In this document: piece after piece, positions 10,325-56,745 of the stretch
Layout: every line of letters starts with the position of its first letter
Numbering within the stretch: the first letter of the stretch is position 1
DNA from: an uncultured Bacteroidales bacterium
GTDB lineage: Bacteria > Bacteroidota > Bacteroidia > Bacteroidales > P3
Length of the DNA: 64,000 bases
NCBI GenBank assembly: GCA_900316055.1
Contig: ONBK01000003.1
Coordinates: forward strand, 90,078 to 154,077
Direction: 5' to 3'
Notes under the pieces: model-generated
Told to the model about the DNA's origin: nothing
Databases searched by the model: none
What the model saw: only the letters and a program-made list of their open reading frames with translations
Program-made: the position numbers and the translations under genes

Positions 10325-11446
10325 ATGATTCCATTTTTATCACTGAAAGACGTAACGGCTCTTCACGGAGCAGAGATTAATGAGGCTGTTAGCCGTGTGG
10401 TTAATGGAGGGTGGTATCTCCAAGGTAAGGAGAATGAGAAGTTTGAGGCAAATTATGCCAACTTTATCGGAACAAAGTACTGCATAGGATGTGCTAACGG
10501 TTTGGATGCACTCATCTGGATCTTCCGTGCATATATTGAGATGGGTGTAATGCAACTAGGCGATGAGGTGATAGTACCTGCAAACACCTATATTGCCACC
10601 ATTCTTGCAATAACAGAGAATGGCTTGAAGCCCGTTCTTGTGGAGCCTAAACTTAACACACTGGAGATAGATGACGACCTCATTGAGGCTGCCATCACTC
10701 CTAAGACTAAGGCTATTGCTATTGTTCACCTCTATGGCCGTAATGCTTATACAGATAAGATTGGTGCTCTTTGTAAGAAGTACAATTTGAAACTGGTTGA
10801 GGACAATGCTCAGGCTCATGGTTGTAAGCATACTGATGGTCGTGTAACCGGTAGCATTGGTGATGCTGCTGGTCATAGCTTCTATCCTGGAAAAAACCTT
10901 GGTGCGCTTGGTGATGGTGGTGCGGTTACCACTAATGATCCAGAACTAGCTGCTGCTATTCGTGCTTTAGCAAATTATGGTTCACAGAAGAAGTATGTGT
11001 TCAAATATACCGGTCGCAACAGTCGTCTGGATGAGATTCAGGCAGCTGTACTTGATGTGAAGTTGAAGTATCTGGTAGAGGATAACGCTCACCGTAAAGA
11101 GGTGGCTCATTACTATTATGAGCATATTAATAATCCGCTGATTACTATGCCGGACTTACTTCCTGATGAGCAGAATGCATACCACTTGTTCCCGATTCTG
11201 GTAGATGACGGAAAACGTGATGCTTTGCATGACTATTTGGACCAGAATGGTGTTGGTACAGTTTGTCATTATCCTATTGCTCCGCATAAACAGGAGTGCT
11301 ATGCTAAAGAGGGATGGAATGTGCCTCAGTTGAGCCTTCCTATAACAGAGAAGATTGCAGATGAGGAACTGAGCCTCCCTATTGGACCTTCAATTACTAT
11401 TGAGGAGGTAGGAACTGTTACTGATCTTATTAATAGTTTTAAATAA
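10325..11446 (+). CDS. DegT/DnrJ/EryC1 aminotransferase (FdtB/QdtB-like)
   Basis: 373 aa PLP-dependent sugar aminotransferase. Motifs are [10 protein letters not shown] (phosphate binding), VEDNAQAHG (Asp that contacts the pyridine nitrogen), [17 protein letters not shown] with the PLP lysine at about K190, and [10 protein letters not shown]. Following the ketoisomerases, it should convert the dTDP-3-keto-6-deoxyhexose to the 3-amino sugar with glutamate as donor. The stop overlaps the flippase ATG by one base. Confidence 0.9.
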
Positions 11447-32437: not shown

Positions 32438-33343
32438 ATGATAATTAATCAAGATTCTGTGTTTATATCAGTGTTTCAGAGTGTAAAGTCTAATTCTGAT
32501 TCGTGGTATAGAGTTCTTAAGTTTCTAGGGAAAGGGGGAAATGGTACTGCCTATTTGGTTTCGTGTACGGATGGTAAGTATAAAGGGTCTTTCTTTACAT
32601 TGAAAGTGTTCCATATGATTTCTTCTGAGGTACGCAAACAACGTTTTTTAGGGGAAATCGAGTTAATGAAGTCCTATCACCATCCAAACATTCTACAACA
32701 ATATGATGAAGGATCCTGGAATGGTTATCCATTTGTCATAATGGATTACATGCCATATTCTATGACCGTCGAAATAGCGCATGAAACGATTACAATTGAA
32801 GATGCTTTAAGGTATTCATTGCAATTGTTGTCAGCCTTAAAGGCGCTCCATTCATTAGGATATATACATAGGGATATCAAACCAGGAAATATATATGTAA
32901 AATCACATAATGCAGTATTAGGTGATTTGGGGCTAATAAAAAAAGTGGCATTAAACAATGATGAGGCTGAAGAAGATATAGAAGGATATATTGCAATGCC
33001 CAAATATTATAGAACACCTGATTTGGTTGAATATGCTAAGAACGGAACAGTGTTAACCGAAAGTTCAGATGTATTTCAACTTGGTTTAGTCTTGTGTGAA
33101 ATATTCGTTGGAGTAAATCCATTAAAACCGACAGACAACCTATTAGATGACATTAAACTGAAACCAGTACCTGTACCTAAGGGGAAGTATGGAGGCAGAA
33201 TTCACTATATATTATTAAAAATGATAGCCAGGGACAAGGAAAAAAGGATTACAGTTGAAAGGGCTTTGGATTTATTCAACAAAATACATGAGGATTATTT
33301 AAAAGATATTATCAATATACAAGGAGATATTCTATATGCGTAA
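32438..33343 (+). CDS. Eukaryotic-type Ser/Thr protein kinase
   Basis: 301 aa single kinase domain with no membrane segment. Gly-rich loop LGKGGNGTAYL (residues 30-40), ATP-binding K56 (LKVF), catalytic HRDIKPGN (H144, R145, D146) and D163-L-G in place of DFG. It ends at about residue 301 with no sensor domain. It overlaps the following aminotransferase by 8 bp, so it is co-translated with a polysaccharide gene. It may control polysaccharide assembly or belong to a defence cassette; target unknown. Confidence 0.9.
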   Translation: MIINQDSVFISVFQSVKSNSDSWYRVLKFLGKGGNGTAYLVSCTDGKYKGSFFTLKVFHMISSEVRKQRFLGEIELMKSYHHPNILQQYDEGSWNGYPFVIMDYMPYSMTVEIAHETITIEDALRYSLQLLSALKALHSLGYIHRDIKPGNIYVKSHNAVLGDLGLIKKVALNNDEAEEDIEGYIAMPKYYRTPDLVEYAKNGTVLTESSDVFQLGLVLCEIFVGVNPLKPTDNLLDDIKLKPVPVPKGKYGGRIHYILLKMIARDKEKRITVERALDLFNKIHEDYLKDIINIQGDILYA

Positions 33344-34586
33344 AAGAATCTATTTGTGCCTTGCGCACATGTCAGAAACAGGACTTGAACAGAAATACAT
33401 CAAAGAGGCTTTTGATACAAACTGGGTAGTGCCCCTTGGCCCGAACGTAAATGGCTTTGAGAAAGATCTGGAGGAGTTCGTAGGTCAGGACAAGAGAGTG
33501 GTAGCCCTTTCTGCTGGTACTGCTGCAGTGCATCTTGCTTTGATTGCTTGTGGCGTAGGCCCTGGTGATGAAGTGTGCGTGCAGAGCTTTACTTTCTGTG
33601 CAAGTTCGCATCCTATCACATACCTTGGCGCAACACCTGTGTTCATTGATTCAGAGAAAGATACTTGGAATATGGACCCCGAATTGCTGGAGAAAGCTAT
33701 TCTTGACCGGAAGGCAAAGACGGGTCGTTATCCCAAGGCTATTGTTCCAGTGGCTCTTTATGGTATGCCGTATAAGGCTGACCGCATTATGGAGATTGCG
33801 GACAAGTATGGTATCCCCGTAGTTGAGGATGCAGCTGAAGGCTTTGGCTCAAAATTCAATGGTCAGGTGTTGGGCACCTTCGGTAAGTATGGTGTACTTT
33901 CGTTCAATGGCAATAAGATGATTACTACATCTGGTGGAGGGGCCTTGATTACTGCTAATGAAGATGACTGGCGAGAAATTATGATGTATGCCACCCAGTA
34001 TCGCGAGAGCTATCCATACTACCAGCACGAGAAGATTGGTTACAACTATCGCATGAGTAATATTTGTGCTGGAATTGGCCGTGGTCAGATGACAGTAGTT
34101 AACGACCATATAGCTCACCATAAGCATGTTCAGAAGCTGTATGAAGAGCTGCTGAAAGATGTTTCTGGTGTTCATGTACATGCTCAGCCTGCAACGGGCG
34201 AGTATGATTCTAACTATTGGCTCTGCACCATCACCATTGATGAGAACGTAAAGATAAAGGGACAGGAGAACGCCTACAAGACCATCGTTCAGGGTGCTGT
34301 AGGTGGAGCAGCCGGTGTGATTCATGTGGCAGACAGTGCAACCACGGATTGTCAGCCCAATGACAATGTGGAAGCTCTTCGTGTATATATGGATGCCGCT
34401 GGCATCGAGGCTCGCCCCGTGTGGAAACCGATGCACAAGCAACCGGTTTATAAGAACTGCCCTGCCTACACAAACGGCGTTTCGGAGGCTATTTTCAAAG
34501 TAGGCATGTGTCTGCCTGCTGGTCCTTATGTCACAGATGAGGACGTGAAGTACATCGTGGAAACGATCAGGAGCGCAATCGAATAA
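33336..34586 (+). CDS. DegT/DnrJ/EryC1 aminotransferase (PglE/WcfR-like)
   Basis: 416 aa. The start KRIYLCLAHMSETGLEQKYIKEAF with NWVVPLGPNVNGFE is typical of the Bacteroides WcfR/PglE group that makes UDP-2-acetamido-4-amino-2,4,6-trideoxyhexose. SAGTAAVHLALIAC, VEDAAEGFGS and SFNGNKMITTSGGG (PLP lysine about K194) are present. With the sugar-phosphate transferase at 40190 it may supply the first sugar of the repeat. Substrate choice is an inference from family resemblance. Confidence 0.88.
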   Translation: MRKRIYLCLAHMSETGLEQKYIKEAFDTNWVVPLGPNVNGFEKDLEEFVGQDKRVVALSAGTAAVHLALIACGVGPGDEVCVQSFTFCASSHPITYLGATPVFIDSEKDTWNMDPELLEKAILDRKAKTGRYPKAIVPVALYGMPYKADRIMEIADKYGIPVVEDAAEGFGSKFNGQVLGTFGKYGVLSFNGNKMITTSGGGALITANEDDWREIMMYATQYRESYPYYQHEKIGYNYRMSNICAGIGRGQMTVVNDHIAHHKHVQKLYEELLKDVSGVHVHAQPATGEYDSNYWLCTITIDENVKIKGQENAYKTIVQGAVGGAAGVIHVADSATTDCQPNDNVEALRVYMDAAGIEARPVWKPMHKQPVYKNCPAYTNGVSEAIFKVGMCLPAGPYVTDEDVKYIVETIRSAIE

Positions 34587-34672
34587 TGAAAGCATTCTTA
34601 AAAGGGGTATGGCAGTTCTGCTCATACCTCTTTTGGCCTCAAAGAAGACCAAAGGATTACTACAATCTTTGA
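34586..34672 (+). CDS. Micro-ORF, 28 aa, paralogue of the micro-ORF at 42748
   Basis: ATG overlaps the aminotransferase stop (TAATG). The peptide has LKGVWQFC, then a Tyr-Leu-Phe stretch and PQRRPKDYYNL. The pattern L-K-G-x-W-x-F-C-x-Y-x-F-x-P-Q-R-R-x-K-x-Y is shared with the micro-ORF at 42748, although the neighbouring genes differ. Conservation of two copies and the tight overlap support real translation. An amphipathic, membrane-associated peptide is possible. Function unknown. Confidence 0.5.
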   Translation: MKAFLKGVWQFCSYLFWPQRRPKDYYNL

Positions 34673-34675
34673 TCT

Positions 34676-34909
34676 ATGACCCAAGATGAACGTTGGTTGT
34701 CCAAATACAATGAGGTAAAAGCGTTTATAGAGACGAATAAGCGAAACCCCTCTAAATACGATGCTACAGAAAGAGGAAAGTATTGCAACTGGCTCCGGCA
34801 TAACAAGAAACTCTACAATACCGGTGAGTTGAAAGAGGAGAGGGTGGGAATGTTTAAGGTGCTTTTTGATGTGATGGAGGTAAATATAAGGGTGAACCAA
34901 TGGAAATGA
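34676..34909 (+). CDS. Small helicase-associated (HA) domain ORF
   Basis: 77 aa, one copy of the helicase-associated-domain pattern: RWLSKYNEVKAFIE ... NWLRHNKKLYNTGEL ... RVGMFKVL. Such a domain normally sits at the end of large helicases as DNA-binding repeats. Here it is alone, as are the related ORFs at 56515 and 56786. It starts 3 bp after the micro-ORF stop and precedes the primase gene by 14 bp. Confidence 0.6.
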   Translation: MTQDERWLSKYNEVKAFIETNKRNPSKYDATERGKYCNWLRHNKKLYNTGELKEERVGMFKVLFDVMEVNIRVNQWK

Positions 34910-34923
34910 TGTAGTGATTAACA

Positions 34924-35973
34924 ATGAAGATTCCTGAAGACATAGTCATCCGCTTAAACGAACTTTCCATTGAGTCCGTAGCAGAAAAGTTGGGGATAGA
35001 AGTGAAGCGGCATAAGGCACACTGCTTTATGCACGACGATCATACTCCCAGCTTAAAGTTTAGCACTACAAAGAATATGTTTTTCTGCTTTGTGTGTAAC
35101 AAAGGCGGAGGTCCTATCCAATTGGTGATGGAACATGAGGGATGGAACTTCCAGGATGCATGCATGTGGCTGGCAAAGGAGTTTAATGTTATTATTCCTG
35201 AGAATCAAGGCCATGCGAAACCCGTAAAGAAGACCGTCCGCAAAACCTACTTGACAAAGAAAGAGGATCAAGTTTATGCTCTTGATGAGGAGATACTTTT
35301 GTGGCTGATTGATAATGCGAGATTGTCGGGAATTGCACAGAAGTTCTTGTTTGATGAGCGCTGTTTCAGGAAAGATGTTATCCAGGGCCTCAACATCAAA
35401 TCGGTAACGGACTCAAAGAAGGCAAAAACTTCACTTATATTAAAATTTGGAGAAGATAGATGTGTGAAGTCAGGGATTGTCAGACGAGGAGAATATGGGA
35501 CTTACTTCTATTTCTACACACCTTGCCTGCTTTTCCCCTATTATGAACAGGACGGAAAAATAGCTGGAATTCAATCGAGATATTTAGGAGAAAAGAAGGA
35601 TGCTCCAAGATTCCAGTTTTTGGCTGCACAGAAAACCAGATTGTTTAATCTCCCTATTTTGAACACCCTAAATAGAAGTGATAAACTTTATATTAGTGAA
35701 GGAATAACGGATTGTCTGGCAATGATGTCTTCTGGTTTAAAGGCAGTGGCAATACCTAGTGCCACCATTCAACCTTTAGAAGACTTGTTACTGTTGAAGA
35801 ATTATGATTTGCACATGTATCCAGACCAGGATGAAGCAGGTCAGAAGGCTTTCATGGAACTGAGGCGTTTCTTTGTTAATAACTATTCCATGGTGAAAGC
35901 AGAGAAGTTGCCCGACGGCATGAAAGATTATTGCGATTATTTTATCTCAACACAGGTTGCTGATGGCAAATAA
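34924..35973 (+). CDS. DnaG-like primase (CHC2 zinc finger + TOPRIM)
   Basis: 349 aa. Zinc finger C34, H37, C55, C58 (HCFMHDDHTPSLKF ... FFCFVC), then KGGGPIQLVM as in DnaG and phage primases. The TOPRIM part has the Glu of ISEGITD (E259) and the Asp pair in YPDQDEAG (D301, D303). It is much shorter than housekeeping DnaG and lacks the helicase-binding C-terminus. First gene of a three-gene unit; the 227-aa gene starts inside its 3' end. Likely makes or processes a primer or nucleic acid for the reverse transcriptase. Function inferred. Confidence 0.85.
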   Translation: MKIPEDIVIRLNELSIESVAEKLGIEVKRHKAHCFMHDDHTPSLKFSTTKNMFFCFVCNKGGGPIQLVMEHEGWNFQDACMWLAKEFNVIIPENQGHAKPVKKTVRKTYLTKKEDQVYALDEEILLWLIDNARLSGIAQKFLFDERCFRKDVIQGLNIKSVTDSKKAKTSLILKFGEDRCVKSGIVRRGEYGTYFYFYTPCLLFPYYEQDGKIAGIQSRYLGEKKDAPRFQFLAAQKTRLFNLPILNTLNRSDKLYISEGITDCLAMMSSGLKAVAIPSATIQPLEDLLLLKNYDLHMYPDQDEAGQKAFMELRRFFVNNYSMVKAEKLPDGMKDYCDYFISTQVADGK

Positions 35974-36640
35974 TGAAAAGACACTGGCGGTAGCGCCTAA
36001 TGAAGTATATACTTTCCAGATGCTGCTGGATGATATACAGGAAAGTGTTATCATAAATGATGAAGACGCACAGACTGATGATAAGGCATCACGAGAACAG
36101 CAATCCAAGCTGATTGTCTTGCAAATGTTGATAGACAGAGCCAATGAGTATAACGATGAAAGCCATCGTGATGACGAGAAGTTGAGGAATGCCATAGATG
36201 TCAAAGTGAATAATGACGTTCATTTGGCTGGATTCATCTTCTATATCTCCCAGAATCCACAATTTGACTATTCGTGGAATTATTTGAGAAAGCGAGAAAG
36301 CAGCTACAAAGAGTTTCTTATAGAGGGTATCCGTTTTCTGGATAATGTTCTTTCAGATATTAATATGCTCGCGAGAAAGACAGGAACAACGAAAGATGTT
36401 CATGTGGTAATGAACGACATTATTGATGTCTCTTTGACAGGGGAAAAGCCTTTTGTGAAAGCGAGTGTTCTATGGGAAAACTTTCATCGGATAGCTACAG
36501 TGAAGAGGGATTATAACTTTACGGTGAAATCCAAAGAGTGTATTTTGGTGGCAGGAAGACGGAAAAAAACATCTGATGCTGAGAAGATTATTGATGCAGC
36601 TCTTGCTATGCTCAATAAAAAAGAGGGGAGTACAGAATGA
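35963..36640 (+). CDS. Uncharacterised 225-aa protein between primase and RT genes
   Basis: ATG 35963 (TTG 35957 is an alternative giving 227 aa); overlaps the primase stop. Acidic and mostly helical, with QEVS-free stretches such as DDIQESVIINDEDAQ and a later FTVKSKECILVAGRRKKTSDAEKIIDAAL, and no domain I recognise. It overlaps the RT start by 4 bp (ATGA). Its fixed place suggests an adaptor or accessory subunit of the primase/RT complex. Confidence 0.75.
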   Translation: MANNEKTLAVAPNEVYTFQMLLDDIQESVIINDEDAQTDDKASREQQSKLIVLQMLIDRANEYNDESHRDDEKLRNAIDVKVNNDVHLAGFIFYISQNPQFDYSWNYLRKRESSYKEFLIEGIRFLDNVLSDINMLARKTGTTKDVHVVMNDIIDVSLTGEKPFVKASVLWENFHRIATVKRDYNFTVKSKECILVAGRRKKTSDAEKIIDAALAMLNKKEGSTE

Positions 36641-39600
36641 ACGGGAAACTAAAGTTGATAGATAAAATACTGGATGAACGGAATATCTTCAACTCGATAT
36701 TCTGTATGGAATCATATGTGTTCGACAAGGGGTTGTTGGATACAGAGAGGCCTGTTGTCTCGTTTGATGATGATGGCGTTGCCAGTGAACCTATAGCGGC
36801 CAATGACCTTGAACTATACTTTGCCCTTGCCGACAAGCACAATGTTGAACTGATAGAGAAGGTTATTGGTTTATGCCAGCAAAAGTTGAAGTGGGTGTTA
36901 GCGGAAAAGGAACATCTCTTTGACGCAACGGTCTATTTCAAACTCAAGAATTATGATGATGGAAAACTGAAGTTCCGCCCGATGCATACGGCAAGGCTGA
37001 TTGACTTGATATGTATGGTAAGCATCATGAATTGTCTGATGTTTGATGATGATTTTGAAACTGGTGAAAGGAAACTTTCTGACCTGTCAAAACTGCTACC
37101 TCATAACTTTTATGGTAATATTCCTAGTACAAACGTTCAATTCCTTTTCCACAAGTGGCAGACAAAATATAAGGAGTATACAGAAGAGGTAATTGAACAT
37201 TGTCGAACTTATCAGCAGAACCACAGTTATCTGACGGAAGTGAGTCTAGACATTAAGAATTTCTTTCCGTCAATATCGCCAAAGATGCTGTATGACTATA
37301 TCATCAGCAAAATGTCAAAGACATATGAGCATGATAAGGAGGATTTGAGCAAAGCGGTAGCGAAGCTCTTGTATTTCAAGATTGATAAGGAGAATATTGA
37401 GCCTTGGATAGAGCATTACTATCCGGAGGAGGCTGACTTGACTGGAGCTGAATTCTATATGAACTACGGGATTCCGCAAGGTTTGCCTCAGTCGTATTTC
37501 TTTGGCAATCTCTGTATGATAGAGGTGAAGCGGCTACTGATGAAGAAAGAATACTTTGAGGGTGATGCTTATTTCTATGTTGATGACTCGGTTATATACA
37601 TCCAAACAAAGTTGGATGATGATACTTTTAAAAACAAGATTAACCAGTTAAATACGAGTCTTGCTAATTGGTGTAAAGAGGCAGAAAACAATCCGAGTAC
37701 AATAAGCAAATATGTAGGGGCTGACTGTCTGGACTTCCAAAAAAAGCTAAGTTATAAGATACGGTTCCACGAAGATGGTAAAAGCGTATTTACTCATATT
37801 GATGAGGCAGATAACCAGTATGGACCGATATCTAACATTACTAGGGAGACCTCGATGCATTCAAAGTTAGCTTACAATTTGGACGAGGTGGATGATCATG
37901 TATCATTGAAAAAGTTGCAAGCTCTTGATGAAGTCATTTCGCGAGAAATTGATGAACTTACTCAGAAACAAAAGAACGCTACAGGCAACAGTACGAATGG
38001 GGATGCGTTGGCATCAAGGCTTAAACTCTTAAGAAGGTTCAAGAAATTCTTCCTTTATCGTAACCGATTGCTGAAAATCAGGGAAGAAGGTGGTCCAAGC
38101 GAGGATATGTTGAATGACTTTAGAAAGCGATTTCTGGAGAAAGCGACTAAGGCGGAAGAATTCTTTGAACAATTTGATGAAGATATATTCCAATCTGAGT
38201 ATAGATTGCTTATTCAGAAGTTGCCAAAGAAAGATGCAGAAAGTTTCGTGAAAGAGATTGAAAACTTTGAGAAGCAGATGTTGGGATCTTGTGGGGTTGA
38301 AACAAAAGGACGCTTGCCATTCTTGTTTTACACAAAAGATGTATGGGCTGCTCTCAAGATGAAATCTTTGACACAGGATATCTATGCTTCACTGGTTCGC
38401 TGGGCAAAAGAAAACTTCAGTGGTTTGAAAAGCATGGACCCAGACAAGCAAATGTTGAAGTTTAGGAACTTTTTGGAGCCTGTGAAGGATAAGAACAACC
38501 CGAACCTCCACAGTATTTTTGGTATGCAAAAGGGAGGGTTCGAGGGTAAGAGTTTTACACTGTTTGTGATAAATGCTTCAGCTGAATACCAGCGGAGAAT
38601 CCTAAATGTGTTCTTCTCAGAGATAATGGATGTGGTTCCGTCAGATACACTTGCCTTTACAAAGATGAATGCCAGACGACTCAGGTATTCTGAACTGAGG
38701 ATTCTGGCTTATCTGAGGAACCAAAGTTTTTATCTAGAAGACTTTGAGGAGTTTATTGAGCATATTAAAGATAAAGACATTTCCAATCAGATGGGAATTG
38801 ATATGGGTGTTCTGGAAGTGCTCAACATCTTTATCAGGAATGTGAGGAAACCCGAATGGGTGGACTCGCTGATAGTTACCCATAGACTGACAAAAGGGTT
38901 ATGGTACAACGGTTCGAAGTTCCTTAATTCATATACCCTACACAATGAGGAACATGCGGTTACGCTCATCACCAAGTCATTGGAACTAACAAACCGTATT
39001 GATTATTTTGTACTGAAAGATATTGACTTCTATATCCTGTTCTTAGCTTGCTACCTCCATGACATCAGTATGGTTATACACCCAGATATGGGCAGACTGA
39101 GTTCAGAGAACGGGAAAAATCTGGTGTTAATTTCCGACTTAATGACTCAGATGCAGGATGAGGTAAAGAAGTTTAGGAAGATAGACTTTAACGACAAGAA
39201 GAATTCAAGATATAAGAATGCGGGGAAGTTCCTTGTTGATGTTTTCAGTCAGGTGTATGGTTACTTCGAAGCGTTAGTCAGGGATAGCCATGCAAAGGAC
39301 AGTGCCAAATTTATTCGTGATCGCTCCAATTCTCTTTTGAACTATTTGGAGCCAACACTGCTTTCATTTGTTGCCAAGGTGTCTGAAAGTCACGGCTACG
39401 ATGTGTTGGATGTGTATGGCTTAAAATCGAGAGCCAAGGATGATACTATCAGTCTGAAATACCTAATGATACTCATCAGGATGGCAGACCTGCTGGATGT
39501 GGCTAACGACCGAGTGAACTACCATCTGTTAAGGCAGAATCTAAAGAATCTGTCGTTAACATCGAAATTCCATTGGATTTCACATTTGGTAACGGACAAA

Positions 39601-40017
39601 ATAGAACTTGATACGGATTACGTTACAGATGAAAAAGCCAAAATGGGCGAGAAACCGATAACGGAAATCATCAACCTTAAACTCTATTTGAACTTCAAGC
39701 AAATGACGGTTGCAGGAAAAAAACGGAAGTGTCAAGGCTGTCAGATGGAAAAGGGCGATGATTGTTTGATTATTAGAGTTAATGATGGAAGTGACCGTAC
39801 TCGTGTTTGTGGAGAAGATCAGTGTATGGTACTATGCAGTTGGATGATGCATAAGCATGATTGGCTGGTGAAAGAATTGGGTGCGTTGAATGACTATCTG
39901 TTTTCCGTGAATAATTCGTTATTCAAGACTCAAATCAATTTCATCATCTACTATCGCGACGAAGTGAGGCTGGATGCTGATATGTTTGACAGTGTACAAG
40001 ATTATTTGGATGCTTAA
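36637..40017 (+). CDS. Reverse transcriptase fused to an HD domain
   Basis: 1126 aa. RT palm motifs: SLDIKNFFPS with catalytic D205, IPQGLPQSYF (Q281) and YVDDS (D316, D317). After a long helical region (about 440-700) an HD-type domain follows: HNEEH (H769, H773), LHDIS (H808, D809) and D951 in MADLLDV, resembling the HD-CE domains of conflict systems. Near the C-terminus is a Cys-rich, zinc-like part (C1032, C1035 and later Cys). No maturase or group II intron features are seen. It is likely a UG/Abi-type defence RT, but I cannot assign a named subgroup. Confidence 0.85.
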   Translation: MNGKLKLIDKILDERNIFNSIFCMESYVFDKGLLDTERPVVSFDDDGVASEPIAANDLELYFALADKHNVELIEKVIGLCQQKLKWVLAEKEHLFDATVYFKLKNYDDGKLKFRPMHTARLIDLICMVSIMNCLMFDDDFETGERKLSDLSKLLPHNFYGNIPSTNVQFLFHKWQTKYKEYTEEVIEHCRTYQQNHSYLTEVSLDIKNFFPSISPKMLYDYIISKMSKTYEHDKEDLSKAVAKLLYFKIDKENIEPWIEHYYPEEADLTGAEFYMNYGIPQGLPQSYFFGNLCMIEVKRLLMKKEYFEGDAYFYVDDSVIYIQTKLDDDTFKNKINQLNTSLANWCKEAENNPSTISKYVGADCLDFQKKLSYKIRFHEDGKSVFTHIDEADNQYGPISNITRETSMHSKLAYNLDEVDDHVSLKKLQALDEVISREIDELTQKQKNATGNSTNGDALASRLKLLRRFKKFFLYRNRLLKIREEGGPSEDMLNDFRKRFLEKATKAEEFFEQFDEDIFQSEYRLLIQKLPKKDAESFVKEIENFEKQMLGSCGVETKGRLPFLFYTKDVWAALKMKSLTQDIYASLVRWAKENFSGLKSMDPDKQMLKFRNFLEPVKDKNNPNLHSIFGMQKGGFEGKSFTLFVINASAEYQRRILNVFFSEIMDVVPSDTLAFTKMNARRLRYSELRILAYLRNQSFYLEDFEEFIEHIKDKDISNQMGIDMGVLEVLNIFIRNVRKPEWVDSLIVTHRLTKGLWYNGSKFLNSYTLHNEEHAVTLITKSLELTNRIDYFVLKDIDFYILFLACYLHDISMVIHPDMGRLSSENGKNLVLISDLMTQMQDEVKKFRKIDFNDKKNSRYKNAGKFLVDVFSQVYGYFEALVRDSHAKDSAKFIRDRSNSLLNYLEPTLLSFVAKVSESHGYDVLDVYGLKSRAKDDTISLKYLMILIRMADLLDVANDRVNYHLLRQNLKNLSLTSKFHWISHLVTDKIELDTDYVTDEKAKMGEKPITEIINLKLYLNFKQMTVAGKKRKCQGCQMEKGDDCLIIRVNDGSDRTRVCGEDQCMVLCSWMMHKHDWLVKELGALNDYLFSVNNSLFKTQINFIIYYRDEVRLDADMFDSVQDYLDA

Positions 40018-40189
40018 TATAGCAACTAACAGAACTGCTTCCCCTTTGTGAGGGCAGGAAAAACAGAGTGGGCGCACGCCCTGGCGGGCGGCCTCTCTGT
40101 GCGGGGAGCGGAAGGCTCTTTTGCGGGCTTGACCGCAAATGTGCCTGAAGCGGTGGTGATGTTTAACAATAAAGAAAACAAAAAAAAAT

Positions 40190-40843
40190 ATGTGGTTGAA
40201 ATGGATATTTGACAGGGTGGTTGCCCTGATAGGATTGCTGGTGCTGTGGCCGGTGCTGCTGATTGTGGCGGTGCTGGTGAAGGTGAAGATGCCGGGCGGC
40301 CCTGCGTTCTTTGTGCAGAAACGTGTGGGCAAGGGCGGCAAGCTGTTCAGCTGCCATAAGTTCCGCACCATGACGGTGAAGCACAACGGCAGCACGGTGA
40401 GCGTGGCGGGGGATAGCCGCATCACGCCACTGGGCGCAAAACTGCGCCACTGGAAGTTGGACGAGCTGCCCGGGCTGTGGGATGTGCTCGTGGGCAACAT
40501 GAGTTTTGTGGGGCCAAGGCCTGACGTGCCTGGGTATGCGGACAAGCTGCAGGGTGATGACCGCGACGTGCTGAAGTTGCGTCCCGGTATCACGGGGCCG
40601 GCAACGCTGAAGTATCGACTTGAAGATGAGATGATATCGGAGTACGTGGCGCAGAAGCAGGCGGCGGGCGACACGCGCCCGATGCAGGAAATAGCCGTGG
40701 AATACAACGACACTGTGATTTATCCTGATAAAGTTCGACTCAACTGCTATTACTACCGACATTATTCTTTCATAAAGGATATTCAGATGATCTTCTGCAC
40801 TGTGCTTGGAAAGAATATGGAGTATGCGGGGGAGAGAATATAA
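40190..40843 (+). CDS. Initiating sugar-phosphate transferase (WcaJ/PglC-type)
   Basis: 217 aa. One N-terminal membrane segment (about 8-31), then FFVQKRVGKGGKLFSCHKFRTM, GDSRITPLGAKLRHWKLDELPGLW, MSFVGPRPDVPGY and KLRPGITGPATLKYR: the bacterial sugar transferase family with the DE pair of the polyprenol-phosphate HexNAc transferases. It should start the repeat unit on undecaprenyl phosphate. Its GC content is visibly higher than its neighbours up to about 40700. The preceding 172 bp (40018-40189) is also GC-rich and holds short inverted repeats. Confidence 0.93.
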   Translation: MWLKWIFDRVVALIGLLVLWPVLLIVAVLVKVKMPGGPAFFVQKRVGKGGKLFSCHKFRTMTVKHNGSTVSVAGDSRITPLGAKLRHWKLDELPGLWDVLVGNMSFVGPRPDVPGYADKLQGDDRDVLKLRPGITGPATLKYRLEDEMISEYVAQKQAAGDTRPMQEIAVEYNDTVIYPDKVRLNCYYYRHYSFIKDIQMIFCTVLGKNMEYAGERI

Positions 40844-42851: not shown

Positions 42852-44660
42852 ATGGAAATAACCGACTTCTCTTTCAATGAAAATGCTCTGTTCTTGAAAA
42901 TAATCGAAGGAACAGATATGAGTGCTGTAATGCACAACGTTATATCCGAAGCACAGCATGAAAGAGAAGGGAATTGCTTTGTTAAATTTGAACGGACAGT
43001 TATCCCTGCCGCTCATCATGATATGCTTTGCTCTTTTGTGGCATTTAAAAGAAAAATGCGCCCTTCATGTTTTCCCGCAGGGGTTGTGGTAGAGGAACTT
43101 TGGAAAGAAAGACGGTTGGCATATCTTCTTGTTATAGAATATAGGGGTTACGTTGTAATCTTGAAAAGAAATATTAGTACCATCAAGAAGCTAAGAGAAG
43201 TAGTTGAGAACATCGATTATAATGTGCTTTGCAAGGTGTTTGTTGACGACCATACACAGTATAAACGTTTTGGCATGAACAATCTTGACCTTGCTGATTA
43301 TGCAATGCGCAGTAAGTCATTTGTGGCTGAAAACCTTGAAGCTGTTTTCTCTACGCTAGGGGCAAATAATTACGCTTTAAGCAGCTTCCAATTAAAAAAC
43401 AATGATGGAATCTATTCTTTATCCCTAGACACTTCCAAAATCAACCAACCCGGTCAAAAGGCAGATATAAACACATTATTGTCGTGGTCAAAGGCGGTCA
43501 TAGATAAGATTGCCGCCTGTAATGATGAGGCCGTCTCGAATTATCTGTCAGTATTTGCTACTCCAGTTGATTATTTAACGGAATTCAATAGGGGAAACCT
43601 CGATGCAAAAGCAATTCTTTTCTCGCTATATAAATTACGAACCGAAGATTGGATTGAGAGCATAACAAAAGAGGACGAAGAGGAACCGTTAGAATTGAAT
43701 GGGATCTGTGATATATTTAAAAACTCTCTCGACCTTATAGCAGTGCCGGATCATGAGCATAACTACTATGTGGATTGGGGAGAGGAAAGGAAAATCAATG
43801 TCATTGTAAGCGAAAGAGGCGTTTCATTTACCAGCGAATGGCTAAACAGTATTAAACTTAATCCGGCTGAAGATGATGAGGAGCATGATGAAGAATCATT
43901 GGCATCGTACATAAGAAACACGGGCGCTTATACTGTTATGTTTGATTCGCCCACTTTAAAGTATTCAAACAGAAAGCTTTTTAAGGACGCGGGGCTAACG
44001 GGAAACGTTGAGGTGTTCCTGAACTTGTTTGAAGATGATGCGGACTTGGTAAATACCACGAGTGAGAAAGGTGATGTGGCGGCGGAATCAACGGTTTTTG
44101 AAGAGGGCTCATTATTCCGTTTTACGGAAGACAAGTATTCTGCAAATGGAAAGATAATGGTTTGTGATGATCTGGGAACGGAATGGGCGGATCATATTCT
44201 GATGGGCGAAGACTCTGTAGCCCTTTTTGCTGCAAAGCATAAAGATTTATGTTTCTCTGCCAGTGCATTTCAAGAGGTCGTGGGTCAGGCTCAAAAGAAT
44301 TTAGGAGTATTCTTCCCGCTTGATGGTATGTGGGATTCAAAGATTAGGAAATGGCAAGAGCAATATAGATTAAATCATGTGCAGTCTCAGATTAATAGGG
44401 TTAGGACAGAAGGGAAGACATCTAATGATGCTGTTGACATGTGGAAACGCGCAGAGAAACAGGTGAATTATCAAAAGGATTTATATTTGGTCATAGACTT
44501 TATGTCAAAGGCAAGGCTGACGACCGCGTTGAGGAACCTGCGTGACGGTGTGGACTTTGCTGAAAAGAAGGAAGCTATACCGATACTTTGGCTGATTTCC
44601 TCCCTCTGGTCTTCTTGCCAGGATATGCACATAAGGTTACACATTACTTGCCGGCCTTAA
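42852..44660 (+). CDS. Large protein of unknown function at the left end of the defence island
   Basis: 602 aa as read. No domain recognised. Acidic linker around residues 335-355 (AEDDEEHDEES). A region reading HILMGEDSVALFAAKHKD then SASAFQEVVGQAQ near 455-480 resembles substrate-handling parts of conflict proteins but is not diagnostic. The last 25 residues in this frame look unnatural; a one-base addition in the A-run near 44573 would give a hydrophobic ending (FLPLVFLPGYAHKVTHYLP) and a stop at 44684-44686. It may be a further component of the island. Confidence 0.6.
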   Translation: MEITDFSFNENALFLKIIEGTDMSAVMHNVISEAQHEREGNCFVKFERTVIPAAHHDMLCSFVAFKRKMRPSCFPAGVVVEELWKERRLAYLLVIEYRGYVVILKRNISTIKKLREVVENIDYNVLCKVFVDDHTQYKRFGMNNLDLADYAMRSKSFVAENLEAVFSTLGANNYALSSFQLKNNDGIYSLSLDTSKINQPGQKADINTLLSWSKAVIDKIAACNDEAVSNYLSVFATPVDYLTEFNRGNLDAKAILFSLYKLRTEDWIESITKEDEEEPLELNGICDIFKNSLDLIAVPDHEHNYYVDWGEERKINVIVSERGVSFTSEWLNSIKLNPAEDDEEHDEESLASYIRNTGAYTVMFDSPTLKYSNRKLFKDAGLTGNVEVFLNLFEDDADLVNTTSEKGDVAAESTVFEEGSLFRFTEDKYSANGKIMVCDDLGTEWADHILMGEDSVALFAAKHKDLCFSASAFQEVVGQAQKNLGVFFPLDGMWDSKIRKWQEQYRLNHVQSQINRVRTEGKTSNDAVDMWKRAEKQVNYQKDLYLVIDFMSKARLTTALRNLRDGVDFAEKKEAIPILWLISSLWSSCQDMHIRLHITCRP

Positions 44661-44735
44661 TGTTTTGGATATGGCGCACGATGTAGTTAGGAATAATTGT
44701 GCTATAAGGCTTAAGGTTATTAATGATTGATTAAT

Positions 44736-44984
44736 ATGGGAGAACAATACTTCAAAGGCGTGCTGGCCGGATATCTTGGGGCAAACTATATGTGTGGCCC
44801 TATCACCGAATGGCAGATAGATATCATCAAAGAAAACATTTTGCATTATTGTGAAGCGATGATAGACCATTCCCTGCTCTCATATCAAGAGAAAGAAGAC
44901 CAAAAGCGCCAAATGAAACAAAGCCTGGAAGTGTATATCCAAGGTGTGAAGGATGAGATGAGGGGGATGGGGAGGATGAGATAG
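44736..44984 (+). CDS. Small helical protein, 82 aa, unknown
   Basis: ATG 44736 (an upstream TTG at 44727 adds three residues). Mostly helical: FKGVLAGYLGANYMCGPI, then IKENILHYCEAMIDHSLL and a charged helix. It lies between the 602-aa gene and qatA. No family recognised. Confidence 0.5.
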   Translation: MGEQYFKGVLAGYLGANYMCGPITEWQIDIIKENILHYCEAMIDHSLLSYQEKEDQKRQMKQSLEVYIQGVKDEMRGMGRMR

Positions 44985-45083
44985 TGTTAAGGGCTCAGAA
45001 AGCATTTGGCGTTTTTGAGGGAACACTTTGGATGGTTGATTGATAAGAGTCGTGAGATATAAAGATAATCTAAAACAATCAGT

Positions 45084-46904
45084 ATGTGGTCAGATAATAT
45101 CGCAGAGAGAGACTACTTGGGGTTTGACGTTCATGCGAACCTGATAAAAGGGCTTATAGATGAACCAGGGATGCTTCCTATTACCATCGGTGTGTTTGGT
45201 GACTGGGGCAGTGGTAAGTCCAGCATCATGGAGTCGCTGAAAAGGGCCTATGATGATGAAAATGACAAGACCACCGTATGCCTTCAGTTCAACGGATGGG
45301 TGTTGGAAGGGTACGATGATGCCAAGGCGGCGCTGATTGAATCTATCCTGAAAAGTTTTGAGGAAAACAAGTCGCTTCCAAGAAAAGCAAAGAACAAGAT
45401 AAAGAAACTCGCCAAATCTGTAAACTGGATGAGGGCGATTGGCTTTGGCGTAAAGAACGTTGCAGTTCCTATCGTTGCTGCTTCCTTGACAGGTGGATTG
45501 AGTCTTGGACCACAGATTTTTGAATGGATTAAGTCGCTCTCTTCAGACCCTCAGCAGATAACAGATGCAATAAAAGATCTTGACTACGATATGTTCAAGA
45601 AAAAATATCTGAAGGAAGCTGACGGAGTGAAACTGGAAGAGCAGTACCAGATGGTACGCAAATTCAGAGATGACTTCAAAGAAATGCTTGACGAGGCCAA
45701 TATCAAGAGACTCATCGTCCTGATTGATGATTTGGACCGATGTTTGCCTGACAGGATTATTGACAATCTTGAAGCAATCAAGTTGTTCCTGAATGTTAAC
45801 AATACCGCATTTGTTATTGGTGCTGATCAGCGCATTGTAAGAGATGCTATCCGTCACCGATATAAAGAGTTGATTGATAGAGATGAGGCGGAAGAGAATA
45901 AACGTGTTGTGGTTGATTATCTGGAAAAACTCATTCAAATTCCCTATAACCTGCCTAAACTTTCAGAGTCAGAAGTGGAAACGTACATTACGCTTCTTTT
46001 CTGTGAGGATGAATTTGGAAAGGACGGAATGGGCGTTGTTATAAATGCATTCAAAGAGTACAGAAAAACTGATCGATACAGTGTGTTTGGGATAGAGCAA
46101 GTAAAGGCCATTGTTACAGACAATGCAGTTAGAAAAAGACTGGAAGAAAAGGTGACTCTAATTTCCAAACTATCACCACTGATTGCAGGAAACCTTGACG
46201 GTAACCCAAGACAGATAAAACGTTTTTTGAATACGTTTGTACTTCGCAAGAAACTGGCAGATGTTGCTAAACTTACTGACTTCCGTGTAGATATACTTGC
46301 CAAACTGATGATTTTGGAATATGCAGAACAGAGTATGTTTACGGAGTTGTACAAATGGCAGTCCCAGAATAAGGGATATGCAATACCTTTGAAGGAACTG
46401 GAGAAGAAGAATGAAGATGGAGAACACGAGATCAGTGATAAGTATAAGGCATGGAAGAATCCGAAAATCATAACATGGCTCGATTCAGACCCGAAACTGG
46501 CAGATGTTGATTTACGCGACTATTTCTGGATTTCTCGTGATAGACTGGAATCCATGTCAGATACGATGACGCCGCCAATAGTTACATCTACTATTAATTC
46601 ACTTATGGTGAAGGGACAGGCGGAAGCGCTTATTCACCAAAAGATAAAAAGAGATATCTTGGGCTTGCAGGATAATTTGCAACACGAATTGTATGCGCAA
46701 CTTGCGAAGCGGGCGGCATCCAACGGTGCAGAAAGAAAGCAGATATTCAACTTGTTTGAGTATATGATTGAGGATAGTTGTCCGTGCAGCAATGAATTCC
46801 ATACTTTGTGTTCGACTGTGAGTTACAAGAGAGTCCCGGCACTTAAGGAAATTGTGACGAGAATAGCTGATAGTCACGATGAGTTTAAAGATTTGAAAGA
46901 ATAG
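45084..46904 (+). CDS. qatA: QatA: KAP-family P-loop NTPase
   Basis: 606 aa. Walker A GDWGSGKS at residues 39-46; Walker B LIVLIDDLDRCLPDR with D215/D216/D218; SLTGG-containing hydrophobic insertion near residues 115-145 as in KAP NTPases; GNPRQIKRFLN sensor region. It is the first gene of a four-gene unit whose order (KAP ATPase, QatB, QueC-like, TatD-like) is exactly that of the QatABCD anti-phage system. The ATPase is thought to power or sense in that system. qatB starts 2 bp after its stop. Confidence 0.93.
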   Translation: MWSDNIAERDYLGFDVHANLIKGLIDEPGMLPITIGVFGDWGSGKSSIMESLKRAYDDENDKTTVCLQFNGWVLEGYDDAKAALIESILKSFEENKSLPRKAKNKIKKLAKSVNWMRAIGFGVKNVAVPIVAASLTGGLSLGPQIFEWIKSLSSDPQQITDAIKDLDYDMFKKKYLKEADGVKLEEQYQMVRKFRDDFKEMLDEANIKRLIVLIDDLDRCLPDRIIDNLEAIKLFLNVNNTAFVIGADQRIVRDAIRHRYKELIDRDEAEENKRVVVDYLEKLIQIPYNLPKLSESEVETYITLLFCEDEFGKDGMGVVINAFKEYRKTDRYSVFGIEQVKAIVTDNAVRKRLEEKVTLISKLSPLIAGNLDGNPRQIKRFLNTFVLRKKLADVAKLTDFRVDILAKLMILEYAEQSMFTELYKWQSQNKGYAIPLKELEKKNEDGEHEISDKYKAWKNPKIITWLDSDPKLADVDLRDYFWISRDRLESMSDTMTPPIVTSTINSLMVKGQAEALIHQKIKRDILGLQDNLQHELYAQLAKRAASNGAERKQIFNLFEYMIEDSCPCSNEFHTLCSTVSYKRVPALKEIVTRIADSHDEFKDLKE

Positions 46905-46906
46905 AT

Positions 46907-47644
46907 ATGGGAACATCGAAAGCATACGGAGGCTTGAAGGGTAATCCTACATGGGGTCCCCTTAGTAGTACAGTGACTCGGGCGGTAAATGGCGGACATC
47001 CTACTAAGAGTTCTCTTGGTAGCGTAATGTCTCATACCGTTGCTCACTTAGGCGGTTCACATGGTGCATCATCTGGTGGTTCGAGTACTGGAGGACGTGC
47101 TGGCGTAAGAGCGGCGCGGCAATTGGGTTCTTTTATTGGGAACGTCCAGAACTACGGATTTATACAGGCTTTGGATCTAATAGCCGGAGGTGTTGAAATA
47201 GAGGATGCTAATCAGGCTATAAATGTCATACTAGAACACTGTGCTGAGCAAGCTGGGATCTTGGATGAGATAGCAGCAAAGGCGGCGATACGCGACCTCT
47301 TGGAAGAGATTGGTGCCGGTGCGGAAACGATAGAAGAACTTGGAGACGGGTTTGATGCCGCCATCAAGGACTTCGGGGCAGAAGAACTGTTGGTGAAATA
47401 CTTCGGATACTATCTTTATGAACATCTTTGTACAGACTTTTATGAAAAGCTTATCAAAGAAAAGGGAATAAGGGAGACAGAGGGTTTCTATAGAGATCTT
47501 AAGGACTATATAGCTGAGAAGACCAAAACCACATCAAAACACCGTGACTTAAAAAAGATAGACTGGCAATCTGACTACGGGAAAGAACTGATGCAAGAGA
47601 TTTTCCGTGACACACTGAAAGAGTTTGAGAACTATGAAGGTTAA
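46907..47644 (+). CDS. qatB: QatB
   Basis: 245 aa. The start MGTSKAYGGLKGNPTWGPLS followed by a Gly/Ser-rich, low-complexity stretch (about 20-75) is characteristic of QatB. Two helical regions follow (about 80-150 and 170-235). Function within the system is unknown. It overlaps qatC by 11 bp. Confidence 0.9.
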   Translation: MGTSKAYGGLKGNPTWGPLSSTVTRAVNGGHPTKSSLGSVMSHTVAHLGGSHGASSGGSSTGGRAGVRAARQLGSFIGNVQNYGFIQALDLIAGGVEIEDANQAINVILEHCAEQAGILDEIAAKAAIRDLLEEIGAGAETIEELGDGFDAAIKDFGAEELLVKYFGYYLYEHLCTDFYEKLIKEKGIRETEGFYRDLKDYIAEKTKTTSKHRDLKKIDWQSDYGKELMQEIFRDTLKEFENYEG

Positions 47645-48992
47645 CGTCTCGATAATTCGACCACGAAATCCGTATGATTTTGCGGGTATAGTGCTGAACT
47701 ATGGCTCTCCTGAAGTAACGGAAGTGTCACTCCATATAGATTATCGAAACCTCTTCGAGTTTACTAGAAGGCAAGAGGGAACTGCTTTTGACCTATTTGT
47801 TGTTGCTAGCATCGTTTATGGTATCGACATCCTGCTTCCACGTGAGATAATAGGTTTTGACGGGTGGAGCAGAGAGATTGATATTTGCTTCCCAGTTGAA
47901 CAAATCGACGTGTTTAATAGCGGTAAAGAAGTTCTGGAGAAAACATTGAGCTTTTTGACCGGCGATTTGTGGACTGTTTCATTTGAAAACAGGACGATAA
48001 GACGGCTTTATAAGTTTGGGAGTAGGCAGAAGGCATACAGCGAATCATTCAGAAAGAGGCATAAAGTGGTGAATCTTTTCTCTGGTGGTATGGATTCGTT
48101 GATAGGGGCCATCAACCAACTTCATAAATCAAATGATGAAGTGTGTTTGGTCTCCCATACTGATTCTATGTTCAAGGGGGCAAAGACTGACCAAGAAGAG
48201 ATACTAAAAGAGTTTAAGAAGAAATATCACCACTACCACCATATCCCAACCAGGGTGGATATGGGGAAACACGATATTCATGGCAATGAGTACGATAAGG
48301 AGACAACATTGCGTTCACGCTCTTTCTTATTCCTCAGTATGGCGGTACTTGTGGCTGACTCTATCGATGAAACCATGCCCGTGCACATTCCTGAAAATGG
48401 CACCATTTCACTAAATTATCCTTTGACGCCTTCTCGAAGAAGCAGTTGCAGCACGCGTACGACACACCCACATTATGTAGAATTGATGGAAGAGTTCCTG
48501 AGAGCAATAGGGCTGAAGCATTCGATTATTAATGACTACCAAACTTATACTAAAGGAGAGATGGTAGAAGAATGCACAGACCATGACCTGTTGCTGAGGA
48601 CTTATCCTTTTTCTTGCTCTTGTGGTAAACGTGGAACAAGAAAAGATATTCGCGATGATGCCCACGCTTCACATTGCGGTGTGTGTATGCCTTGCGTTTA
48701 TAGAAGGGCTGCATTGCATAAGATAGGGGAGTCGGAAACGGTAGGGACGGATATATTTAATTCGCATAAACGCAGGGTTATGGAGATTCCAGACATGCCT
48801 GCACTTGCCTGCTACCTTAGAAAGGCTTTGACCCTTCAAGAAATAGAACGAGGGCTTCTTGTCAATGGGCCACTTCCGTTAGACAAGTTGGAAGAATACG
48901 CAAAGGTTGTGATGAGAACACGCGATGAGATAAAGCAATGGATAAGAGATGAGGCTTCTGATGAAGTGAAGCGTCTGTTTGGAATACGATGA
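47634..48992 (+). CDS. qatC: QatC: QueC-like PP-loop enzyme
   Basis: Start set at ATG 47634 (452 aa; a TTG at 47625 is possible). PP-loop motif FSGGMDSLIG at about residues 149-158. The C-terminal zinc site is CSCGKRGTR with HCGVCMPC. This is the QueC (7-cyano-7-deazaguanine synthase) fold, which activates and amidates a carboxyl group. In QatABCD it probably modifies a protein or nucleotide target. It overlaps qatD by 4 bp (ATGA). Confidence 0.92.
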   Translation: MKVNVSIIRPRNPYDFAGIVLNYGSPEVTEVSLHIDYRNLFEFTRRQEGTAFDLFVVASIVYGIDILLPREIIGFDGWSREIDICFPVEQIDVFNSGKEVLEKTLSFLTGDLWTVSFENRTIRRLYKFGSRQKAYSESFRKRHKVVNLFSGGMDSLIGAINQLHKSNDEVCLVSHTDSMFKGAKTDQEEILKEFKKKYHHYHHIPTRVDMGKHDIHGNEYDKETTLRSRSFLFLSMAVLVADSIDETMPVHIPENGTISLNYPLTPSRRSSCSTRTTHPHYVELMEEFLRAIGLKHSIINDYQTYTKGEMVEECTDHDLLLRTYPFSCSCGKRGTRKDIRDDAHASHCGVCMPCVYRRAALHKIGESETVGTDIFNSHKRRVMEIPDMPALACYLRKALTLQEIERGLLVNGPLPLDKLEEYAKVVMRTRDEIKQWIRDEASDEVKRLFGIR

Positions 48993-49675
48993 TAGATACG
49001 CACTGCCATTTTGATATGATGCCCAAGCCAGAAGCCTATATCAGGCAAAGGGAGCTGGTGGGTGACATTGTGATTGGCATGACTAACCTGCCAAGTCACT
49101 TCCAGATGGGGCAGCCACATTTAAAAGGGTATAAGCATATCAGATTAGCGTTGGGGATGCATCCGTTGTTGGCTACTGAACGTAAGATAGAGGTTCCGCT
49201 TTTTAAAAGGCTGGTTGATCAGACATCATATATTGGAGAGATTGGGCTGGATTTTTCGAAAGAGGGTTATGCTACTAAAGATGATCAGATTGAAGTGCTA
49301 CATGAGTTGCTATCAGCAATTCGTGGCAAAAAGAAGATAGTTAGTGTTCATTCTCGCAAGGCAGAGAAAGAATTGCTGGCTTTGCTTTGTGAGTATGAGA
49401 TAGAGAATGTGGTTTTTCACTGGTATAGTGGGCCTGTTGACCTTATACCTGACATTCTGGCGCAAGGATACTATTTCTCTGTGAACGAAGCCATGTGCCT
49501 GTCGAAGAACGGTAGAGCCATTATTGAGAAGATTCCACGGGAAAGGTTGCTGACAGAAACGGATGCGCCATATAATGAGAGAACTAATATTCGTGCTGCT
49601 CTGGATTATATGAAGATGTCAGAAACAGATGTCTTTCAGAATTTCAGAAGTCTATTGAATAGGATTAAGGCGTGA
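48989..49675 (+). CDS. qatD: QatD: TatD-like DNase
   Basis: 228 aa. Metal-binding TatD motifs: DTHCHFDM at the start (H4, H6), GEIGLDF, VSVHSRKAEKE, VFHWYSG and TETDAPY. It is shorter than housekeeping TatD (about 260 aa) but has all ligand motifs. Final gene of the Qat operon; expected to act as the nuclease effector. Confidence 0.92.
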   Translation: MIDTHCHFDMMPKPEAYIRQRELVGDIVIGMTNLPSHFQMGQPHLKGYKHIRLALGMHPLLATERKIEVPLFKRLVDQTSYIGEIGLDFSKEGYATKDDQIEVLHELLSAIRGKKKIVSVHSRKAEKELLALLCEYEIENVVFHWYSGPVDLIPDILAQGYYFSVNEAMCLSKNGRAIIEKIPRERLLTETDAPYNERTNIRAALDYMKMSETDVFQNFRSLLNRIKA

Positions 49676-49750
49676 TGTGTGACAGCACAGGAGGCTCTTA
49701 AAAAAGAATAAATGTTGCTAACAAATGCAATTCGATTGTGGATAAATCGT

Positions 49751-49758
49751 TAATTTTG
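49751..49758 (+). promoter_or_regulatory. Candidate -7 element before ptuA
   Basis: TAATTTTG fits the Bacteroidetes -7 consensus TAnnTTTG. It lies 23 bp before the ptuA ATG in the 106-bp gap after qatD. A clear TTTG -33 element is not seen, so it is a weak prediction that ptuAB is transcribed on its own. Confidence 0.35.
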
Positions 49759-49781
49759 TGGAATAATATATAGTTACGATT

Positions 49782-56514: not shown

Positions 56515-56745
56515 ATGACGCAAGACGAGCTGTGGCATTCGAAGTACAAAGAAGTGATGACTTTTATTGAAACAAATCATCGGAATCCATCTAAACATCG
56601 AGTTGAAGAACATCAGATGTTGAACTTCATCAAGCACAATAGGAAGTTGATGAATAAAGGTGAGTTGAAAGAAGGTAGGGTGGAGATGTTTGAGAAGTTG
56701 TTGGAGATGGGGGAGAGGTGTAGGAGGGTGAATCAGTATGTCTGA
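56515..56745 (+). CDS. Small helicase-associated (HA) domain ORF, second copy
   Basis: 76 aa. Starts TQDELWHSKYKEVMTFIE and has MLNFIKHNRKLMNKGELKEGRVEMFEKL, as in the ORF at 34676. It lies directly after the 816-aa gene. Confidence 0.55.
   Translation: MTQDELWHSKYKEVMTFIETNHRNPSKHRVEEHQMLNFIKHNRKLMNKGELKEGRVEMFEKLLEMGERCRRVNQYV

Follow-up and report, generated by a model that had tools for sequence, protein, structure and literature searches.

A UG24 reverse transcriptase-HD phosphohydrolase with a DnaG-type primase and a conserved middle protein forms a mobile candidate defence cassette in Bacteroidales

Why would a bacterium keep a DnaG-type primase, a small protein without a family name and a reverse transcriptase (RT) fused to an HD phosphohydrolase in three overlapping genes? 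Such a unit lies in a 64,000-nucleotide stretch, here called the window, of contig ONBK01000003.1 from an uncultured Bacteroidales bacterium (assembly GCA_900316055.1). A first-pass annotation, made from the letters of the DNA, had read it as a likely defence operon and could tie the RT to no named class. We ask whether the unit is real, to which family it belongs and what it may do. The same gene order in five loci, together with low ratios of nonsynonymous to synonymous substitution rates (dN/dS), confirms that the observation is real and beyond chance. The unit appears to be a new cassette of a catalogued, apparently uncharacterised family of defence-associated reverse transcriptases (DRTs), rather than a new kind of system.

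The RT does have a name. Among the PADLOC models, RT_UG24 matches the third gene almost end to end (1229 bits, residues 6-1125 on model positions 3-1035 of 1036), and the next-best model, Drt1a, reaches 41.8 bits. Given that the UG24 model spans to the end of the protein, the HD part belongs to the UG24 architecture. In Pfam, both RVT_1 (36.7 bits, cut-off 29.6) and HD-CE (88.7 bits, cut-off 27) match. A tree of 24 RT cores, in which two rows outside UG24 were labelled DGR by guess, has one branch with support of 100/99 that splits off the five UG24 rows, all those found in the present analysis, so the earlier view that no named class could be assigned does not hold. A retron RT was considered and rejected (NCBIfam retron_St85_RT, 25 bits against a cut-off of 235; no Rfam match over the window at the gathering threshold).

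UG24 appears as a class label in PMC8934634. What defines class 3 of the UG/Abi RTs is an RT that carries either a nitrilase or a phosphohydrolase domain (PMC13275509; PMC12489045; here and below, citations refer to the available parts of the sources), and by this definition UG24 would be a class 3 UG/Abi RT, or class 3 DRT; the definition is applied here by us, and literature naming UG24 there was not found. We came across no characterised system with the same gene content: UG24 is catalogued, and the literature searched, which left out most subscription papers and preprints, yielded no experimental work on the function of UG24 or of any unit that combines DnaG, RT and HD.

The first-pass reading also depended on the gene order being kept in other genomes. 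A pattern scan of genome contigs returned two loci, L001 from uncultured Bacteroidetes RUG12171 (G1202, in the window's genus) and L002 from Bacteroidales RGIG3218 (G503, in the same order but another family). Scanning viral contigs with RT residues 195-330 returned four, of which L066 and L067 are full UG24 systems (1270.9 and 1215.8 bits against RT_UG24) and L068 and L069 hold short RTs of another sort. Primase, middle gene and RT stand in this order in all five UG24 loci, that is, in the window and four further ones. Identity to the window is 90% (L001), 88% (L002) and 40% each (L066 and L067) for the RT, and 95%, 81% and 39% each for the primase. This recurrence and the PADLOC matches support the single operon-like unit of a DnaG-like primase and an RT-HD fusion that had been claimed.

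The active sites of the RT-HD protein are complete. D205, Q281 and YVDD are all present in the RT as had been described, and H769/H773, H808/D809 and D951 in the HD-CE domain were also read correctly, the full HD set being larger by H885 and H919. None of the seven HD residues varies among the ten aligned HD-CE proteins (eight from outside UG24 and two from UG24). In the five UG24 proteins D205, Q281, the stretch YFYVDDS (312-318) and the seven HD residues are all invariant, as are C1032, C1063, C1067 and H1074, a possible zinc site near the C-terminus. A likeness of residues 617-694 to cytochrome c in the PDB (best E 0.00094) was discarded, because it was gone when a five-row profile was used (none at 0.01).

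The CHC2 ligands and TOPRIM acidic residues that had been claimed for the primase are present (C34-x2-H37, C55-x2-C58, E259...D263 and D301-x-D303), and two Pfam models pass their cut-offs, Zn_ribbon_DnaG at 55.7 bits and Toprim_2 at 29.9 bits. Against the PADLOC RTasDnaG-like model the primase scores 355.9 bits, compared with 132.3 bits for the other DnaG of the same genome. At a limit of E 1e-30 this model also picks up ordinary DnaG, with matches in 110 of 120 genomes of the genus and 9 of 14 control genomes; in the genome scan the window unit reaches 356.6 bits and G1202 354.2, and all other listed matches stay at or below 156.9. That gene 1 is the housekeeping DnaG is ruled out by its score against NCBIfam TIGR01391 dnaG (108.2 bits, below the cut-off of 283.6) and by its end right after TOPRIM, which leaves no room for the C-terminal helicase-binding domain of DnaG. 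A primase without that domain would have to reach its template in another way, for which the middle protein is the obvious candidate. The zinc domain of DnaG reads the template; it is kept in four of the five UG24 primases, and the TOPRIM site in all five. E259, D263, D301 and D303 are invariant in seven aligned primases (the five of UG24, the partner of a UG6 RT at locus L060 and the primase of a gut contig, L056).

Between these two enzymes lies the protein that the databases do not place. Searches of Pfam, PADLOC and NCBIfam up to E 1 returned nothing for it, its best PHROGs match is at E 0.28, its PDB matches by sequence are at chance level (best E 0.26), and so are Pfam searches with five members (best E 0.085, in one of the five). 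PADLOC models matched none of the middle proteins of the window, L066 and L067, the three scanned. The gene is nonetheless found in each of the five UG24 loci. It evolves fast, with identities to the window of 98% (L001), 82% (L002) and 19 and 22% (L066/L067). Close and distant groups are homologous by hhalign (E 4.2e-6), with a score of 45.5, where 50 column shuffles reached 23.8 at most. What the present analysis adds is this conserved middle gene, the distant relatives and the full set of HD site residues.

The open reading frame (ORF) listing of the window gives three forward-strand ORFs, at 34924-35973, 35957/35963-36640 and 36637-40017 (Table 1). The three overlapping genes that had been placed at 34924-40017 are therefore borne out, with one correction. 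The listing starts gene 2 at TTG 35957; the ATG at 35963, which gives 225 amino acids (aa) and aligns with the ATG of L002, is likely the true start. Genes 1 and 2 then overlap by 11 nucleotides (ATG 35963 to stop 35973) and genes 2 and 3 by 4 (ATGA at 36637-36640).

Table 1. Features of the three-gene unit and of the segment that contains it (window positions)
Feature	Coordinates	Strand	Description
Gene 1	34924..35973	+	349 aa, DnaG-type primase core: zinc domain, RNA-polymerase domain and TOPRIM
CHC2 zinc ligands of gene 1	35023..35097	+	C34, H37, C55, C58
TOPRIM domain of gene 1	35689..35940	+	residues 256-339; E259, D263, D301, D303
Gene 2	35963..36640	+	225 aa, family without a name, in five of five loci
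Gene 3	36637..40017	+	1126 aa, UG24 RT fused to HD-CE phosphohydrolase
RT core	37147..37677	+	Pfam RVT_1, residues 171-347; D205, Q281, YVDD 314-317
HD-CE domain	38929..39615	+	residues 765-993; H769, H773, H808, D809, H885, H919, D951
Cys/His-rich C-terminal stretch	39730..39858	+	C1032, C1063, C1067, H1074
Inserted segment	34587..40189		77-aa gene and three-gene unit, between DegT aminotransferase and sugar-transferase genes; ends approximate

Selection on the unit was estimated by the Nei-Gojobori method from the three close copies (window, L001 and L002). In eight of the nine whole-gene pairs dN/dS is 0.03-0.10, with 0.08-0.10 for the primase and 0.03-0.05 for the RT-HD gene. The middle gene gives 0.09, 0.09 and 0.32, the last from the window/L001 pair, in which dS is only 0.03 and changes are very few. 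Subregions of gene 3 range from 0.02 to 0.11 where computable, dS being saturated in four subregion pairs. The RT, TOPRIM and HD sites are intact and, by these estimates, under purifying selection.

The copies also define where the unit begins and ends. DNA identity of the window to L001 starts one base before the primase ATG, and to L002 at the ATG; to both it ends 2 bases past the RT stop. Edges this sharp leave no conserved flanking RNA in these copies, and comparison of the flanks with the two close copies, gene interiors left aside, found no conserved non-coding RNA of the class 2 type beside the RT. A permissive Rfam search over 34500-40400 gave four chance-level matches far below gathering. 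L001 and L002 share a further short upstream stretch, the tail of a CBS-domain gene, which in L001 (3305-4273) stands directly before the primase and carries a HEPN-like RNDVMH motif by eye. We rejected it as a fourth component, given that it is complete only in L001, is reduced to its 31 last residues in L002 and occurs in the window's genome as an unlinked 44% relative; it is an optional neighbour at most. Nucleotide identity between the window and L001 is 98.7% in the middle gene, 92% in RT codons 1-400 and 77% in RT codons 401-760, a sharp change inside the RT gene (window 36637-38916). This mosaic suggests recombination, and thus that the cassette may be a recombinant.

The unit moves as one sharp three-gene block. 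At locus L076, in a genome of the same genus (G1212), the DegT aminotransferase and sugar-transferase genes are adjacent, with 11 bases between the matched stretches, as an empty site. The search matched 20 of 59 genomes at 12 loci, one of them the window's own; among the 11 examined, with 1.5 kb on each side, L076 gave a full match and L077 a partial one, and the other nine gave none within that distance. L066 is flanked by tyrosine recombinases. The 77-aa protein encoded before the unit (34676-34909) has a sub-threshold match to Pfam Helicase-associated (24.9 of 28.4 bits). Small genes of this kind stand next to the defence island described below. The window's genome has four of them, a pair in the window (34676-34909 and 56515-56739) and a pair on contig C12, and in L001 two flank the unit (902-1135 and 10947-11141); they are possibly a marker of recombination or of a hotspot.

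Downstream, PADLOC identifies PDC-S71 (42852-44660) and QatA, a weak QatB and QatC (45084-48992), followed by a TatD DNase gene (48989-49675), which we take to be QatD, and a PtuA-like ATPase (49782-51077). The unit thus sits in a defence island, with these neighbours at 42852-51077. Conservation in other genomes, the PADLOC defence models and the PDC-S71, QatA/B/C and PtuA neighbours all lend support to the defence role that the first-pass annotation had thought likely. Elsewhere in the window, a serine/threonine kinase gene (32438-33343) lies directly upstream of the glycan gene that precedes the insertion, its best PADLOC match being mad6 (148.6 bits), followed by PD-T4-6 kinases, and a 461-aa protein (56921-58306) has a weak match of residues 347-441 to a PADLOC TIR 'Effector' model (39.3 bits).

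How widespread are such units? The scans use a few exact peptide patterns and sampled genomes, so their counts are no estimate of prevalence. Full-length matches to the UG24 model came from 2 genomes among 393 for the order, 2 among 190 for the family, and 1 among 395 for each of the class and the phylum. The same genomes recur across these samples, the window's own included, and the matches come from three distinct genomes (G000, G503 and G1202). Partial matches, to either the RT or the HD portion, numbered 2 for the class and 3 for the family, and for the phylum they came from 26 genomes; one of the partial matches, in G1239, is a 154-aa C-terminal remnant (131.3 bits). The C-terminal remnant of a distant UG24 at L013:8532-8996 (34% identity, another genus of the same family) is probably a decayed copy, with primase and middle gene unmatched in the 11.9 kb around it. 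A protein search of the phylum recovered the window's genome alone of 395. Viral-contig scans with the whole RT and with queries A1, A2 and A3 gave no further relatives, and those with A4 and the L066 RT led back to the two contigs already known and to no others. No full-length UG24 was found in plasmid and phage collections by tblastn with the window or L066 RT; the plasmid collection yielded one HD-only match and, when searched for the middle protein, none. The record of L066, an IMG/VR contig, contains a second, weak UG24-model match to the RT part (G1294:C1:14558-15079, 28.4 bits, in a 476-aa frame).

Compared with the UG24 system of PADLOC (RT_UG24 with RTasDnaG-like), the unit agrees in the end-to-end RT-HD match and the specific primase match, and differs in its middle protein, which PADLOC leaves unmatched, yet which no locus lacks. 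DRT1, which we take to be UG1, has a homologous RT region (hhalign E 1e-9, residues 84-325) and likewise an effector fused C-terminally. It differs in being a single-gene system with a nitrilase (PMC13275509), where UG24 has HD-CE; Pfam (RVT_1, HD-CE) and PADLOC (UG24) list no C-terminal nitrilase in gene 3. DRT1 has also been described as 'associated or fused with C-N hydrolase or phosphohydrolase domains' (PMC12596737), and the line between DRT1 and UG24 may be less sharp in the literature. A priming serine shared with DRT1 was considered and dropped: DRT1 Ser402 lies outside the aligned part, which stops at residue 325, and according to its authors the other class 3 DRTs do not conserve S402 (PMC13275509). 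S406 is invariant in UG24 and lies beyond the stretch aligned to DRT1. DRT7/UG10 also joins an RT and a primase in one system (PMC13174585, PMC8934634, PMC13213688, PMC12596737); its primase belongs to the PrimS family (PMC12596737), and the available text on DRT7/UG10 does not mention an HD domain. HD-CE proteins with Hsp90-like ATPase regions (L014, L015 and L038; ATPase region read by eye from motifs) share the metal-site residues and have no RT.

Primases of this type also stand beside other RTs. In G342 (L060:5129-9435), a 349-aa RTasDnaG-like primase (293 bits) overlaps the start of a UG6 RT (841 bits for UG6, 37.5 for UG24), so that a second RT family has a partner from the same primase family. 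This pair differs from UG24 in having no Pfam HD domain and no gene between the two; beyond the RT the contig soon runs out. The UG29 RT model, too, matches these DnaG-like primases, with its N-terminal part. On L056, an unannotated gut contig, a primase that falls in the same PADLOC family (218 bits, 33% identity) stands alone, after a gene that by eye looks like a replication gene of a mobile element. The partnership of primase and RT thus appears recurrent and wider than UG24, and, given these three settings, RT-partner primases may have been recruited from mobile-element primases. At L016:5042-9022 a UG6 RT gene is followed by a 300-aa gene that resembles a nitrilase by eye.

What, then, might the unit do? 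We suspect that it is a mobile UG24-type class 3 DRT cassette in which phage-triggered, primase-assisted synthesis gates an HD effector and brings about abortive infection, a proposal that we hold to be evenly poised between right and wrong. The three proteins would assemble into a complex that stays inactive while the cell is healthy. Phage replication would expose single-stranded DNA, where the compact primase, probably positioned by the middle protein, would start short chains, or it would feed them to the RT. The RT would extend these chains, or chains that it starts on its own protein in the manner of other class 3 DRTs. The nucleic acid product, held by the RT and the long middle region of the protein, would switch on the fused HD-CE phosphohydrolase, which would destroy nucleotides or a similar essential phosphate compound, and the infected cell would stop before phage release. 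HD domains hydrolyse; a nucleotide signal, raised as a possibility in the first pass, is not favoured, as family scans of the three proteins reported no cyclase-like domain.

The precedent is DRT1, which needs both its RT and its nitrilase active sites, acts by abortive infection, and is protein-primed and template-free, its DNA synthesis controlling the effector (PMC13275509). By analogy, HD-CE would be the effector of UG24 and RT synthesis its switch. A more specific version, in which the middle protein would carry the primase to phage single-stranded DNA and the UG24 RT would extend the primers, as a template-reading DRT coupled to an HD nucleotide hydrolase, we put forward tentatively and think rather unlikely.

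Several points weigh against primase-assisted gating of an HD effector. Those class 3 DRTs that have been studied need no supplied template and prime their DNA synthesis on protein (PMC13275509), and the primase might therefore be unneeded for priming and serve another purpose. The primase of L067 has no N-terminal zinc domain, and tblastn of that part against its locus gave no match. The RT-core tree, with its long branches, leaves the relation of UG24 to DRT1, UG5, UG6, DRT2 and other RTs unsettled. AlphaFold2 models, each from three sequences, were unusable for the RT-HD protein (predicted local distance difference test, pLDDT, 35.0) and for the middle protein (pLDDT 38.2). The substrate of HD-CE is putative, the 0.32 of the middle gene departs from the other ratios, and the published functional record of UG24 found here is empty.

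Other arrangements of the same parts have to be considered. The RT could start DNA on itself without a template and the primase, alone or handing back to the RT, make the second strand, with the HD domain trimming the product or being switched on by duplex. A double-stranded DNA product is reported for DRT3, which uses two RTs, and proposed in a preprint for DRT7, which has a second polymerizing (primase-polymerase) domain (PMC13174585, PMC13213688). The DnaG-like primases beside UG6 and in the UG29 model would also suit such a scheme. DnaG-type primases, however, make short RNA rather than long DNA, and we consider a duplex product unlikely. We judge it similarly improbable that attached RT-made DNA locks the HD domain as a toxin, to be released by phage factors or by lost contact with the primase and middle protein, which would then be sensors or antitoxins. 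DNA adducts do keep DRT1 in a dormant filament, but RT-inactive DRT1 is not toxic (PMC13275509), so that simple locking would depart from the very precedent that favours it. Also in keeping with a guarded toxin, the HD region is the best-kept part of gene 3 in two of the three pairs of close copies (95-96% aa identity, against 82-95% for the C-terminus, 86-93% for the RT and 86-91% for the middle region).

The unit might instead have no part in defence and serve the replication or maintenance of a mobile element, primase and RT copying the element with HD as an accessory. The related stand-alone primase of L056, after its presumed mobile-element gene, and the tyrosine recombinases around L066 would fit. 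The shared block, however, is exactly three genes, without a helicase, Rep or integrase gene, and its defence-island setting and PADLOC families point the other way, so we regard this explanation as very improbable.

Class 3 has been called the least characterised (PMC13275509), and DRTs make quite different DNA products (PMC13213688). If the template-reading version is true, UG24 would differ from the reported class 3 DRTs, which are template-free and protein-primed, in being primed by a primase and copying a template. If the primase primes the RT, replication sensing would be linked to DNA synthesis in an immune system. A functional test that omits the middle gene may wrongly make UG24 look inactive. 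With possible trigger, writer and killer activities in one small transferable three-gene block, the UG24 unit is a good experimental target.

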